The position numbers and the translations under genes are program-made. A stretch of 64,000 nt of DNA from positions 186,001 to 250,000 of the forward strand of contig JAHDVF020000494.1 of the NCBI GenBank assembly GCA_022606425.2, in the 5' to 3' direction. Of this stretch, positions 690-49,745 are shown piece after piece. The notes under the pieces were generated by a model, which was not told where the DNA came from, made no database searches, and saw nothing but the letters and a program-made list of their open reading frames with translations. Position 1 is the first letter of the stretch. Each line of letters opens with the position of its first letter. The DNA is from Lepidostoma basale. Lineage: Eukaryota; Arthropoda; Insecta; Trichoptera; Lepidostomatidae.

Positions 690-870
690 TCTTCTATATT
701 CGCCATAACTTTGTGTTGCGGATGATTCATGTTTCTTTTTTATATACTTTGTATACAACACACACTTAATTTAAAAAAACATGTTTCGAACACACAAGCC
801 CTTCATCAGTGATATATTACATAAATATAAAAAAAAAATTGAAAAGTGTGTTGTATACAAAGTACCTACT
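690..870. repeat. Foldback repeat with hammerhead-like motif in the loop
   Basis: Inverted arms ACTTTGTATACAACACAC (from about 745) and the matching AAGTGTGTTGTATACAAAGT (843-863) enclose a loop. On the minus strand the loop reads CTGATGAAGGGC, a spacer, then GTTCGAAACATGTTT (777-809). A related copy flanks the composite element at 25244-26467. The upstream text ATATTCGCCATAAC recurs near 12577, 18380 and 25190. Confidence 0.6.
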
Positions 871-1358: not shown

Positions 1359-1496
1359 ATTAATGAATTTTAACCATTAAAATTCATTAATTCATACACT
1401 GTGAAGAAGGAAAGTCTGTGTCCCGAAACATGTTTGAGGAAGTTGCAAAAAAGTCTTGTGAAAATACAATGTTTGTAAAAAGTTATTCAAAATATT
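1359..1496 (+). repeat. Direct repeat, left copy, with degenerate hammerhead-like motif
   Basis: It begins with a small perfect hairpin (ATGAATTTTAA / TTAAAATTCAT) and contains GTGAAGAAGG, a spacer, and CCCGAAACATGTTTG. The same roughly 125 bp recurs at 1921-2046 in the same orientation. The LINE-tailed element at 1503-1905 lies between the two, giving an LTR-like arrangement. Confidence 0.6.
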
Positions 1497-1502
1497 CATA
1501 AC

Positions 1503-1905
1503 TAAATAACTAACTAACCATCACGCCGTCTCCCCGAAAGGGTAGGCAGAAAGAATGGACTGTCACACTTTAACGGATGCGGCACTCTATCCTTCTCTTT
1601 TCGCCTCGCGGGAGATGCGTTGTGATGGGTTGCGAACCTCATCGCCACTAATAGGCATCTCCCGCGCACACTTCGATCGTCCAACATCCACAAAAAAATC
1701 TAAAACAAATAATTAACAATACAATGATATAAAATAAAATAACAAAATAAAAATAATTTAACACAAAATGTTATTTTTAGATGGTGCACATATTGTCTAT
1801 TTAATTTATGATCCACGTTATCCACAGTTTTTTTTAATTAGCAGTAATAAGGCACTTAAAATAAACCAACACCAGCAAGAACTTTAAAGTAATATTAAGA
1901 AATTA
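1503..1905 (-). mobile_element. LINE-tailed non-autonomous retroelement
   Basis: Read on the minus strand it ends with the LINE-A 3' module (ACTGTCACAC-side text, GGGGAGACGGCGTGATGG) and (TTAG)n, but has no ORF. Its GC-richer core includes GAGGTTCGCAACCCATCAC, which resembles a Pol III B box, and CTCCCGCGAGGCG. An AT-rich body follows toward its 5' end, shared with 46300-46972 and 53155-53848. The 5' end is uncertain. Confidence 0.7.
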
Positions 1906-1920
1906 TAATTTATTATTATT

Positions 1921-2046
1921 TAACCATTAAAATTCATTAATTCATACACTTTTAAGAAGGAATGTCTGTGTCCCGAAACATGTTTGTGGAAATTGCAAAA
2001 AAGTGTTGTGAAAATATAATGTTTGTAAAAAGTTATTCAAATTTAA
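1921..2046 (+). repeat. Direct repeat, right copy, with degenerate hammerhead-like motif
   Basis: Near-identical to 1371-1496, including CATTAATTCATACACT, a variant TTTAAGAAGG box and CCCGAAACATGTTTG. The two copies differ by point changes and a few indels. Confidence 0.6.
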
Positions 2047-2257
2047 ATATATTCATTGAAATTTAAATTCGACAATATTTTTCTCGCTTTCTCGCGATCG
2101 GATTTGTATATTTATGGCATATCTTTCCCTTCACGAGGAAGTAAATCACGTCATAGTTCGCTGAATTTTTTTTTGCCAAGTCGTTGCAAAATATTGCAGT
2201 ATCATGCTCCTTTTCGAACAACACCAATAAAACACACAAATTTTTTTATTTATAAAA

Positions 2258-4419: not shown

Positions 4420-4797
4420 AGAACCCAAGTCCTTAGTGCCGTTTTGTTCTCTATATGACGACCTTTTCAGTAACAAACATTTTTATAGTCATATCAATCA
4501 ACGTTGTTCTAAGGTAATTCTATAATATTATAAACAATTTTTGTCTTTTACATTAATTTTTCAATGCATTAAATGTGTGAAAAATTACATACATACACCA
4601 AACATGTTTTTGCATTGAGTAAAATATTAATTTAAAAAATTTAACCTTTTTTGTTTTCTTTTTACACCACGTTTCTTGTATTATCAACCAACCGGTTTCT
4701 CTCCCGTCGGAGTTTTGTCAGGGTTTCAAAAACAAACATTGGATTCGAAACGGGTTCGTTCTGAAAACAAAATAAAGTGATGTAAAAACTAAGTGCT
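4420..4797. other. Unassigned stretch
   Basis: AT-rich. CCGGTTTCTCTCCCGTCGGA at 4691 resembles text near 55965 (CCGCTTCCGCCGGAGTTTC), so an old repeat is possible. No coding seen. Confidence 0.4.
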
Positions 4798-17825: not shown

Positions 17826-17836
17826 GTTCATTGCAA

Positions 17837-18012
17837 ATAATGAAAATAAAAAAAAAAATTAAGAATTTTTCTATGTTTATTTTTAGTGTAAAATCTAAAA
17901 CCAGAAGATGGCAGCGAGCTGCCGAAACCGGTCGAAGACGAAAATCAATAAGTAGATTTTACACTAAAAATAAACAGAAAAATTCTTAATTTTATTTTTT
18001 TTATTTTCATTA
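17837..18012. repeat. Foldback element, about 60-bp arms, hammerhead-like loop
   Basis: The left arm 17837-17896 and right arm 17952-18012 are almost perfectly complementary (for example TTTTTAGTGTAAAATCT against AGATTTTACACTAAAAA). The 55-nt loop reads CCAGAAGATGGCAGC, then GAGCTGCCGAAACCGGTCG. The hairpin GGCAGC/GCTGCC is followed by GAAA and the palindrome ACCGGT. Decayed relatives occur near 34690-34760 and 63721-63766. Confidence 0.85.
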
Positions 18013-18184
18013 TTTACATAACGTATATTTATATAAAACCCTGGTATACAGATCTACACGTACTTATGCGTATAAAATTTTAACTATCCATGACGTGAAT
18101 ATTATTTTGCATAGAAAAATTTAATTAAACAAAGTAACCTAAAACAGATGCGCTTAAGAGATAATGCATGGATAATTAATAGGA

Positions 18185-18360: not shown

Positions 18361-18420
18361 GTTGAACATCATTTCTTCTATATACGCCATACTTTATGTG
18401 AATGAATCATAATATTTGTT

Positions 18421-18784
18421 ATAACAAAAGCATAAAAGTTCCAAAATAAATCTTTATAACATCTGTCAGGTCATGTAAACAACAACAATTTTATAATATT
18501 ATATTTATATAAATATGTATCTTTAAGGAAGAAGGAATGTTCGTCCGAAACGTGTTGTAAATACATAGTGTATAAAAAAGAAAAATAGAAATTTAACATC
18601 ATTGTTTAAACAATAATAAATAATGCAAACCTGGCCTACCCTAATTAGCTGTGCTTATAATTTTGACGAGTAAATCAAAAATGTCCTATGTATTGTCAAT
18701 TAACTAGAACATTGAAGAACATTTTTTATTTAATAATTTGTTTAAAATAAGTTACGTCTTCTTGAGTATTCAATTCTAGAACAT
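18421..18784. other. Unassigned stretch with one motif fragment
   Basis: Contains AAGAAGGAATGTTCG and TCCGAAACGTG at 18530-18556, resembling the loop motif at 1402-1435. Otherwise AT-rich with nothing recognisable. Confidence 0.4.
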
Positions 18785-26049: not shown

Positions 26050-26126
26050 TTAAAAAAATTAAAAAACAAACATCTTTCGGACACAGAAGCCCTTTATCGG
26101 TGTTACAACATTTGTTTAAATATATA

Positions 26127-26380
26127 ATAATAGTCCATTGTTTTGGCCGAAACACTATGATACGATTACTTCAACATTATTACTGTTAAAATTTAAAACA
26201 CTGTTATAGTATCACAATTTCTTTTTATTCACCGAGAGTGTCGCAACAGCTGTTTATTGTAACACCTGATGATGCCAACATCGGTTAGCGAAACAGCTGT
26301 CGCGACATTCACAGTGAATAAAAAGAAATTGTGATATTATAACAGTGTTTTTAATTTTTACAGTAATTTATCATTATATT
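26127..26380. repeat. HHR1-family foldback with apical motif
   Basis: Arms run from AACACTGTTATAGTATCACA and AATTTCTTTTTATTCAC to their reverse complements, continued inward by CGCAACAGCTGTTT and AAACAGCTGTCGCG. The apical loop reads CACCTGATGATGCCAAC, then ATCGGTTAGCGAAACAGC. The flank TAGTCCATTGTTTTGGCCGA is shared with 49505 and 55855. Confidence 0.8.
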
Positions 26381-26467
26381 TTTAACACTAATAAAGGGCT
26401 TCAGTGTCCGCAACATGTTTGTTTTTTAATATTTTTTTCATAAAGTTCGTGTTGTATACAAAGTTTA

Positions 26468-26828
26468 AAATAACATTGTTTTGTAAAACGAATTTAATTT
26501 TATTCCACTTGCACGAAATAGGAAGAATTAATGTTCTACCAACCCTGACAATTCACGTAATTATTTATGGTTAACATTATATTATGCCACGTCAATTATC
26601 TTAAGTACCTTATTCTGTTCAATTAGCTCGGGTATATAAATACCTTCGCGATTGTTTCTTGCCTTATTTGCTTATTTACTATCTTGTCATATTATCTTTG
26701 TTGATTATCGATATGATTATTATTATTATTATTACTATTTTTTATTTTCCACCTTTAATATATTCTCCTATAAATAGTTACTAAACGTTCTTTTAATTAA
26801 AATAATTAGGTACCTAACTGAAATCCAG
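26468..26828. other. Unassigned stretch
   Basis: AT-rich with a short (ATT)n run at 26718-26736. No repeats or coding identified. Confidence 0.45.
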
Positions 26829-27045
26829 CAAGAACTTCAAAATTCTATCAAAGAGATTATTCAAATTGACATAGGAACAAGTACACATAAAGGTTCGAAA
26901 AATCACGAAATTTTGACATTTGATATATTATTGTAACACCTGATGATGTCAACATAGGTTGACGAAACAGCTGTCGCGAAAAAAAATACAGTTGTGATAA
27001 ATAAAACAAAGTTTTTAAATTTAATAGTTTATAATTATTAATTGT
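26829..27045 (+). repeat. HHR1-family element, linear copy
   Basis: Matches 49505-49745 (reversed) along its length: TTGACATAGGAACAA, TCGAAAAATCACGAAA, TTATTGTAACACCTGATGAT, GAAACAGCTGTCGCG. It holds the best core: CCTGATGATGTCAAC, ATAG, GTTGACGAAACAGCTGTC (26939-26975). No protein. Confidence 0.75.
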
Positions 27046-31050: not shown

Positions 31051-31689
31051 AACATTACGACAGGTGTATTCAAGCAAAAATTCTAATCATTAACAGATTT
31101 CTTTTTTAAACATCATGTATCTGAAGAAACGCGTTATTGTGTGTATTCTGATGAATGACACAAATGAATTGATATCATACTTCAACAAACTATTTGTTTT
31201 TTAATCCTGACGAAGTTCCGGCAAGATCTAAACCGGCCGGTTAGATGAAAAAAAAAATTATGTGGTGAAAAATAAATTGAAAAGTGTTTTAAATTATTTT
31301 CAATAAAGCCCCATTACAAAAAGTAAGTGCTTCATACGAAAGTACGCGTTTATTCTGTTTTTTTTTAAAATTATTATAAATATTTGTCTATGTGCCCAAA
31401 ATCACCTTTTTGTGTGTGAATAATTTGATGAAACAAAAAAAACGAATATAACAAACGTTTTTTTGTCCATCCTTGTCTTTGTTGGAAATTTCATTGTCGA
31501 GAGCAGACGAAGTTTACAAATTGGATAATTCAACATTCCTAAGTACTAAGATAAATTTGTTTTTGCACTGCCTACGGAGAATTTGTTGCCATCTGTATTT
31601 GTAGCATCACCCTATAATCCCCGGAAGACGAACAGCGGCGGAAACTTTTACTAATTTGTAATCATGCCTTTATCTCTGTATACTTTAAA
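31051..31689. other. Unassigned stretch with a motif variant
   Basis: At 31206-31243 CCTGACGAAGTTCCGGC is followed by AAGATCTAAACCGGCCGGTT. This is the hammerhead-like arrangement with TAAA in place of GAAA and an ACCGGCCGGT palindrome. No inverted arms noticed. Remaining sequence unremarkable. Confidence 0.4.
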
Positions 31690-34435: not shown

Positions 34436-34479
34436 TAATAACGATGTTTTTATAAAAAAACTTATTCTACTTTTGTGAC

Positions 34480-34860
34480 ACAGAACACTCTTTCGATGCC
34501 AGCGAGCTTGGCAAAATAGGTCGCTGTAGTAGTTCTTTAAAAAAGCATCTTTTTATTTAATTAATATTTAAAATAAACTTCCATGATGAGATTTATGGTA
34601 CATCATTAGTTAATTATTTTTTTAATTATGGCAAAAAAAGTGTTACAATTTATTTATTCCGCTGTCTTTCTATAATAGTCAAGAGTGGTTTTGGCAGCTC
34701 GCTGCTATATTCTGGTGAAAGCTATAACTAGAAGATGCCACTGAGAGGCCGAAACCGAGACTAGAATAACACGTTGATTAAAATTATATTTATATTGTAA
34801 AGAAAAAAATATTTTTATTTTTGTTTTAATTTTAATTTTCTTATTGTACCAATGTAGAAA
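34480..34860. repeat. Decayed foldback related to 17837-18012
   Basis: Minus-strand CCAGAATATAGCAGCGAGCT (34694-34713 region) and plus-strand AGAAGATGCCACTGAGAGGC with CGAAACCGAGAC (34732-34763) are opposing degenerate motif copies around a short spacer. Confidence 0.45.
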
Positions 34861-44159: not shown

Positions 44160-45170
44160 TGGAATTCTGGAGAAGTGGGATTCTGACTTTATTAAACATA
44201 TATCACTGATTATTTTATCTGCCGAACGATACTTTTATATATTCGTCAGAGCGATTACTGAAATTATTTCAGATTTCATTTAAAAATATGTGAAATTTTT
44301 ATTTTATTATTTGATATGATATTTTTTACTGTGAATATAAAGATGTTTACTTATTATTTTTAACCAGACTTTGCTGTAACGAGAAGGATGATTCTCTTGA
44401 ATAATTACAGTTCCCGGGGTTCTTAATTCCCCGTTGTTTTTTTAAGCAAGTCTGTAGAATTTGCATTAATTTTAAAGAAACCTTCCATTACAAAAACAGC
44501 GTAATGTTCATCCGAAGAACAGCGTAATCCAAAGTACATTCATACTAAAAATTGTAAGCGAGCGCTTAAAATGAGATTCAATATTTGCATAATTTTAATC
44601 AAAATTTATATTAAAATTACAGGGAGTTTATTAGTCCTTCAATATGAAAACAAAATATAAATATTTTTGTTTAGGAACACAGGTAAATATTTAACGTTTT
44701 GATTTATAGTCTCGTAATCTTATCTCAACATTCTTAAATTTACAAAATCAAAGAAAATATTTTTTAGAATGATGAATGATTTTAAAAACATTGTTTTTAC
44801 ACAGTACTTTTTGGTAATTTTCACAAACATGTTTCGGTAACAGACAGCCCTTTCTCGGTGTTTAACCTCCACAATACAAAGTAAAGGCGAATACAGAATA
44901 ATTTTGAAAATATATTAAAATCTTTAACTTTTTTTTCAAGATTTAAACAGAATTATTTTTAATTACTTTAATGCAGCCAAGTATACATATTTATTTATGA
45001 CAGTAGTGTACAATATATATTATAAAATATAACAAAGTTTAGACGACAATTGTCTCTCGAAACTGGAACTGTGGTTAATTGATTAGTTTTAATTTATTTT
45101 CAATATTTACAATGACTTCTTACAAGATATTTCCGTAACATAAATTCATAGAAACACAAAATATTTCATT
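44160..45170. other. Low-copy stretch with one loop motif
   Basis: Minus strand at 44825-44860 reads CACCGAGAAAGGGC and ACCGAAACATGTTTGTG, a motif variant as at 26070. The rest, including a GC-richer TTCCCGGGGTTC near 44411, is unassigned. Confidence 0.4.
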
Positions 45171-49500: not shown

Positions 49501-49504
49501 TTAA

Positions 49505-49745
49505 ATAGTCCAGTGTTTTGGCCGAAACACTATGGATACCTTAACATTTTAAACTGTTAAATTAAAGGACTTTGTTTTTTGTATCACAATTGTATTTTAT
49601 TTTACGCGACAGCTGTTTCATCAACCTATGTTGATATCATCAGGTGTTACAATAATATATCACATGTCAAATTTTCGTGATTTTTCGAATCTTTACGTTT
49701 ATTTGTTCCTATGTCAATTAGAATAATTTCTTTGGTTCATCGACG
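49505..49745 (-). repeat. HHR1-family element
   Basis: Minus strand: TTGACATAGGAACAAATAAA, ATTTGACATGTGATATATTA, TGTAACACCTGATGATATCA, ACATAGGTTGATGAAACAGC, TGTCGCG. The hairpin is ATCAAC/GTTGAT against GTCAAC/GTTGAC at 26939, a paired change. It ends with AGTGTTTCGGCCAAAACACT, itself palindromic. Confidence 0.8.

Follow-up and report, generated by a model that had tools for sequence, protein, structure and literature searches.

Minimal hammerhead ribozymes of Penelope-like elements (PLEs), the kind to which we compare the motif examined here, were reportedly described by Cervera & de la Peña in 2014 and by Lünse, Weinberg & Breaker in 2017. The hammerhead of CChMVd, from the work of De la Peña & Flores in 2001, is said to carry an extra nucleotide in its catalytic core, reportedly after A9; in this extra core nucleotide it resembles our motif, but CChMVd is a viroid and not a retroelement.

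Passages of PMC7761336 place minimal type I hammerheads in the pseudo-LTRs (pLTRs) of PLEs, with a reduced helix III, possible self-cleavage as dimers and thousands of copies dispersed in animal genomes; ours is alike in pLTR location, reduced helix III and proposed dimer type, and appears to differ in having a constant extra base. The Poseidon PLE of Anolis carolinensis (PAc), as treated in parts of PMC11167929, likewise combines an ORF for reverse transcriptase (RT) and GIY-YIG with a hammerhead, PAc's being located at the pLTR/ORF junction. It also has two adjacent reverse-transcription starts, which match the optional tail, and both target strands are cut and extended; host and families are different. 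The Penelope families of Adineta vaga, according to parts of PMC3846280, are alike in their inverted 5'-side pLTR, their optional 31-bp tail and their head-to-head pLTR junctions, which are the most frequent kind, and the word hammerhead is absent from the main text of that paper. Based on the observations outlined below, we posit that a motif at 26940 in a stretch of the Lepidostoma basale genome is very probably a minimal dimer-type hammerhead of PLEs in which helix II is always preceded by one extra base.

A recurring motif with one extra base

The window (the whole 64-kb stretch analysed) had been predicted to hold a recurring arrangement of a core, one extra base, a hairpin, GAAA, a palindrome and T. 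In the family A copy at 26940, the sequence and a descriptor scan give the following parts.

26940..26975 (+): family A motif
26940-26946: core, CTGATGA
26947: extra base, T
26948-26953 with 26958-26963: helix II, reading GTCAAC-ATAG-GTTGAC
26964-26967: GAAA
26968-26973: palindrome CAGCTG, which is helix III
26974: U16.1
26975: H17 (C); the cut is predicted after this base

The recurrence is confirmed. A descriptor scan of the 64-kb window finds the arrangement, with palindrome and T, at four sites (809 and 49643 on the minus strand, 17902 and 26940 on the plus strand), and the same descriptor has 0 matches in 40 first-order Markov shuffles of the window. A stricter descriptor (GAAA required, at most one core mismatch, at most one G-T pair in helix II) keeps three window sites, losing 809, and adds 12 more in 200 kb from elsewhere in the genome; these 15 real sites compare with an average of 0.1 in ten shuffles of the same 264 kb. 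That sample consists of the window plus 20 stretches of 10 kb, picked by round position before their content was known from contigs already matched by a family A 18-mer search, and is near-unbiased rather than random. Across the genome searched (769 Mb, 1572 contigs), the exact 18-mer of family A occurs 4,754 times and its reversal 0 times, and the loose pattern CTGANGAWG-N7-15-GAAACNNGTY has 26,828 matches versus 4 for its reversal. The motif is present tens of thousands of times in the genome, and with shuffles near zero and 26,828 matches versus 4 reversed, a chance origin was rejected. As had been noticed, the palindromes differ between families while the form is kept: CAGCTG in family A, CATG in family B and CCGG in family F.

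The extra base, originally raised as an objection to a hammerhead, is real: exactly one is found in 15/15 strong sites. Since none of the strong sites in the 264 kb has zero or two, a canonical one-strand hammerhead was rejected. A second sample comprises the 53 places listed with sequence among the 26,828 loose-pattern matches. When one base is skipped, helix II pairs at positions 1-4 in 51, 49, 50 and 49 of the 53, versus 5, 37, 35 and 20 with no base skipped and 33, 28, 12 and 38 with two; skipping three is also worse than skipping one. In the loose pattern, the A/T base, G10.1, GAAAC and GT are all prescribed, a bias towards the one-base register at the first pair, and because the pattern presupposes the A/T base, the count of 26,828 is no test of the extra base, whose constancy rests on the 264 kb and the 53 listed places. 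It is a constant base, A or U, that separates A9 from helix II. A literature search that excluded the likeliest sources (Cervera & de la Peña 2014 and Lünse 2017) found no statement on an extra base in PLE hammerheads; we do not claim the base as unpublished, and regard it as a less expected feature of the PLE motif.

Location in Penelope-like elements

The motif belongs to the terminal repeat of PLEs, downstream of an ORF with RT and GIY-YIG. Both domains, with GIY-YIG C-terminal, are found in one ORF at L061, where an open 741-aa frame matches RVT_1 (E 1.1e-13) and, just at the cut-off, GIY-YIG (E 1.3e-4). The best-scoring named relatives of this protein are from moths and butterflies: one from Phthorimaea shares 43% identity across 82% of the query, and one from Euphydryas 40% across 99%. 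On the 5' side of the L061 element (L055, contig C742), an inverted terminal repeat with the motif sits beside an AT repeat. PLE ORF matches number at least 60 among those listed (3,359 first-look candidates), several of them open frames longer than 800 aa.

A GIY-YIG search gave 62 places among the matches listed, with 150 of 541 candidates scored, and the 3' flanks of nine of the 62 were fetched; one, L054 (a UvrC), was set aside. Five of the eight remaining flanks hold a complete motif (L051, L056, L058, L059 and L060) and one, L057, a motif with a decayed core, in all six about 110-520 bp into the fetched flank. The last two, L053 and L052, stop 12 and three bases into the motif, respectively, and both are nearly identical to L051 up to there. 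L051, L052, L053 and L058 form family C; L056, L057 and L060 look like one family (G), with L059 as a third (H). The RT domain is seen for family C only, and G and H are assigned to PLEs by the GIY-YIG match, L059 having in addition a PLE HMM match (E 1.1e-9). For family A the link is L011, where 862-1110 matches a PLE protein HMM (alignment A1; positions 724-786, E 2.8e-11) and the family A motif follows about 370 bp downstream of the PLE C-terminus; Pfam did not recognize this short piece. Linkage by coding sequence covers families A, C, G and H, and families B, D, E and F are placed with them by shared architecture.

When 20 ORFs taken from the window and the loci were compared with Pfam, mariner transposases and host genes turned up and no PLE, an IMG/VR scan with PLE alignment A1 returned no relative, and a PDB sequence search gave no match. 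The mariner-type genes or fragments (Transposase_1) include L035:1700-2842, L044:6759-7421 and L015:224-760. The UvrC at L054 (G000:C102:22626-23330) is of bacterial type, in an open 623-aa frame on a 1.64-Mb contig, and may point to the genome of a symbiont or contaminant in the assembly.

Terminal-repeat copies in the window

The original prediction assigned the motifs to several unrelated foldback families. They belong instead to several PLE terminal-repeat families with many copies head-to-head, and the impression of foldback families arose because the window holds many PLE terminal-repeat copies of several families.

26849..27035 (+): family A terminal-repeat copy around the motif at 26940 (blastn; 3' end clusters), 88.9% identical by blastn to the copy at 49546-49734 and terminating near the short 3' end
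26050..26473 (no strand): inverted PLE-derived foldback (repeats; blastn with family probes), with a family A motif from 26266 (+), helix II mismatched, at its centre and family B copies as both arms
49503..49734 (-): second family A copy, motif at 49643, terminating at the long 3' end (descriptor scan; blastn; 3' end clusters)
700..869 (-): family B copy, palindrome CATG, motif at 809 (descriptor scan; family probes)
1389..2057 (+): two family B copies, 1389-1496 and 1939-2057 (blastn with family probes)
4614..4722 (-): L059-type repeat copy with motif CTGACAAAACTCCGACGGGAGAGAAACCGGTT (blastn with family probes)
17832..18021 (+): family F foldback whose motif, at 17902, has the core CAGAAGA and the palindrome CCGG (descriptor scan; family probes)
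18365..18629 (no strand): inverted pair of decayed family B copies (family probes)
31193..31316 (+): decayed L059-type repeat copy, TAAA for GAAA (family probes)
34445..34845 (+): decayed copies of family C (34445-34572) and family F (34687-34845) (family probes)
44755..44885 (-): decayed family B copy (family probes)

Three further examples offered with the motif at 26940 stand in part. There is a motif at 17902, but U4 of its core is changed. The minus-strand example at 777-809 is a motif, at 809, but is lost when at most one G-T pair is allowed in helix II. The example at 31206 proved to be the decayed L059-type copy, with 65% identity over 125 columns. The copy at 26940 is itself most likely a passive fragment rather than a working gene. 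Another high-copy repeat, of about 60 bp around CCCCGAAGGGGTAGACAGA, is found at 600-665 of the window and at 14 more places across it, with about 82-97% identity.

Helices II, III and I

Helix II covaries, and has many different sequences among the 53 places. In 38 distinct shortened strings, 93.6% of cells are paired versus 71.5% when shuffled, double-change cells number 50 versus 14.8, and the covariation score is 0.549 versus 0.153, each with 0/500 shuffles as high; neither the pairs with a double change (477/500) nor the further pair types (204/500) are in excess over shuffles. In slid controls, the paired share drops to 19-39%. Helix III is a palindrome in 48 of the 53 listed places (CATG in 36, CCGG in 8, CTAG in 4), the other 5 being non-palindromic. 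Within one strand, helix III is absent: there is only a loopless palindrome, usable between two strands.

Helix I had been described as not evident. This is right for the copy at 26940, which has only one contiguous helix I pair, helix I being weak in family A, but swap tests point to about 4 bp in several other families. For 61 instances under 22 keys (each key combining the start of helix II with the palindrome), pairing with the own partner at positions 1-4 occurs in 19.1, 11.2, 14.8 and 12.5 of 22, versus 11.6, 6.1, 8.7 and 8.3 when swapped, and 0/2000 partner swaps are as good. Position 5 shows no excess (5.4 versus 8.7 swapped) and position 6 a small one (12.0 versus 9.2) over the same 22 keys, which are non-independent in that several are family A variants and one L050 site appears under two. 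When 58 instances are merged into seven families, excluding three ungrouped instances, the values are 6.2, 3.9, 4.1 and 3.6 of 7 versus 4.8, 2.0, 2.4 and 2.7, and 67/3000 swaps equal own pairing, a weaker result than with 22 keys. The bases flanking the core read ACAC/GTGT in L056 and CATC/GATG in L059. Compared between families, the instances support a helix I about 4 bp long.

Proposed mechanism, dimer folding and catalysis

The suggestion of a dimer-type hammerhead with self-complementary helix III, as in PLEs, finds support in kind from the 3' location, helix II covariation, the palindrome and the helix I swaps. We propose a mechanism in which two separate transcripts, or a tandem pair of repeats within a single one, would pair via A-palindrome-U (a shared helix III) and helix I, each strand retaining its own helix II hairpin, with cleavage after UC or UU. 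PLE reverse transcription would start at either of two sites just downstream, leading to two alternative 3' ends. Copies are often 5'-truncated and often inserted as head-to-head pairs; head-to-head copies, in turn, would give foldbacks with the motif near the tip. That dimers cleave, and that the geometry arises through reverse transcription, are steps that we infer.

In unconstrained folding, the homodimer of L002, a real copy, has 4 pairs in helix I, 6 in helix II and 8 in helix III, the arrangement expected for a dimeric hammerhead. It is the one copy of five folded that does so, and 25 of 300 controls with shuffled flanks reach the same three-helix form, such that the modelled L002 fold may be taken as weak support for dimer cleavage. 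In the L059 and L045 homodimers the palindrome pairs between strands and not all three helices form, the strands of L056 pair outside the dimeric hammerhead register, and the window copy prefers another fold, with no three-helix form.

Comparison of core with flanks within family A, which had been put forward as a check, only slightly favours the core. In 21 copies (from 31 with the exact 18-mer, excluding 10 unmatched upstream of the motif), identity is 0.91 in the core box, 0.94 in the helix II 5' strand and 0.98 in the hairpin loop, which is as conserved as the stem, versus 0.87 in the 12 bases upstream and 0.85-0.89 in the 40 bases downstream; it is 0.43 at bases 13-24 upstream, where copies are already truncated. 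Because the core exceeds the flanks only slightly within the family, single copies seem to be free of constraint. It is in comparisons between families, and not within one, that constraint can be seen, and there is no support for selection on individual copies.

In family C, the core reads CTGTCGA or CTGTTGA, that is, A6 is changed to U, in 7/7 instances (L051 from 519, L058 from 477, L039, L040, L047, L050 and L009), while helix I, helix II, GAAA and the palindrome are retained. This change should cripple cleavage with the fold kept. Could the conserved shape, then, be mainly a binding or folding signal by which the PLE protein engages its own RNA, with catalysis dispensable or lost in many families? 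We consider this unlikely but a serious minority candidate, and there are observations on both sides. Family C keeps the shape with A6 changed even where the motif, that of L051, adjoins the open 741-aa frame of L061, and passages of PMC11167929 report that the anole PLE ribozyme cut only with protein and that ribozyme-dead mutants still insert. However, a pattern demanding CTGANGA and GAAA still matches 26,828 places, and the protein-binding motif of the anole element is placed, in the same passages, in the first 172 nt of the ORF.

Copy geometry

Neighbouring copies show a head-to-head bias. Motif neighbours within 2 kb are minus-then-plus in 12 cases versus plus-then-minus in 2 and same-strand in 3 (first 100 loose-pattern places), the family A counterparts are minus-then-plus in 11 versus 0 (first 100 family A places), and GIY-YIG places within 3 kb are so in 5 versus 0 (all 62 listed). 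The minus-then-plus order means that 5' ends face each other, with the element 3' ends outside. Past the motif, the 3' ends of family A fall into two clusters separated by about 40 nt: of 79 blast matches that extend beyond the motif, 26 stop at probe positions 370-389 and 36 at 410-424, with 17 stopping elsewhere, the 79 being partly redundant as the loci overlap. Both patterns have been described in PLEs, as the head-to-head pLTRs and optional 31-bp tail of Adineta Penelope (PMC3846280, in part) and the two reverse-transcription starts and extension of both target strands in the anole PLE (PMC11167929, in part).

Several loci show arrays or junctions in their own right. Two (C308, at G000:C308:2096196-2107934, and C502, at G000:C502:3065-14798) hold four PLE ORF matches each, two minus then two plus, as head-to-head tandem arrays with same-strand pairs about 0.8-1.1 kb apart; on C308, all four scores are equal. 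At L017/L018 (G000:C2:911248-911814), a full family A copy is accompanied by a short palindromic junction composed solely of the motif's 5' part and a mirror copy of that part.

A second possibility is that the copies are non-autonomous, retrozyme-like elements that spread via circular RNA with PLE proteins acting in trans, which we judge improbable. PLEs are proposed as helpers of metazoan retrozymes in passages of PMC7761336, and the 4,754 family A 18-mers stand against at least 60 listed PLE ORFs, counts that are not like for like. Yet family A copies are 5'-truncated and paired head-to-head, L011 joins family A to PLE coding sequence, and no tandem array of short units was noticed on simple reading of the family A copies. 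That the elements are DNA foldback or MITE-type transposons, with hairpins hammerhead-like by chance, is scarcely credible, as their long inverted arms flanking the motif are outweighed by shuffles that rarely yield it, by PLE coding sequence adjoining it in families A, C, G and H, and by the head-to-head neighbours and two 3' end clusters; DNA foldback transposons were rejected for the families linked to PLE coding sequence.

Classification and meaning

We return to the dimer-type PLE hammerhead as the preferred reading. An Rfam search, suggested as a way to confirm the motif, gave no match to any hammerhead model, even in 4.1 kb with permissive filters. The CUGANGA and GAAA boxes are present in register (15 strong sites; 26,828 versus 4), with exceptions in family C at A6 and family F at U4. 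By strict definition the motif is not a canonical hammerhead: a base intervenes between A9 and the closing of helix II, a single strand forms no helix III of its own, and Rfam models give no match. We assign it to the dimer-type motifs of PLEs because their testable defining features are present, namely, terminal-repeat location near RT and GIY-YIG, self-complementary helix III, an inverted flanking copy (L055), two family A 3' end clusters and the head-to-head bias; that it works like a hammerhead we infer.

The kind is already known. Less expected are the constant extra base, the invisibility to Rfam and the change of A6 to U beside an open 741-aa frame. We speculate, as a doubtful extension, that the motif represents a structurally distinct hammerhead subclass, in which an inserted A or U obligatorily follows A9 and helix III forms exclusively between two strands, and of which one open-frame lineage lost the catalytic A6 and kept the fold. 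Current Rfam models miss the extra-base form, and what looks like a foldback family in such a genome can consist of PLE terminal repeats and not of DNA transposons.

According to a passage of the review PMC7761336, what PLE hammerheads do is a mystery. Natural variants, with many families that differ in their helices and with normal and A6-changed motifs by open frames, allow the question to be put directly: is it cleavage that is kept, or shape? If the extension above is true, the A6-less lineage would separate the role of the shape in retrotransposition from catalysis.
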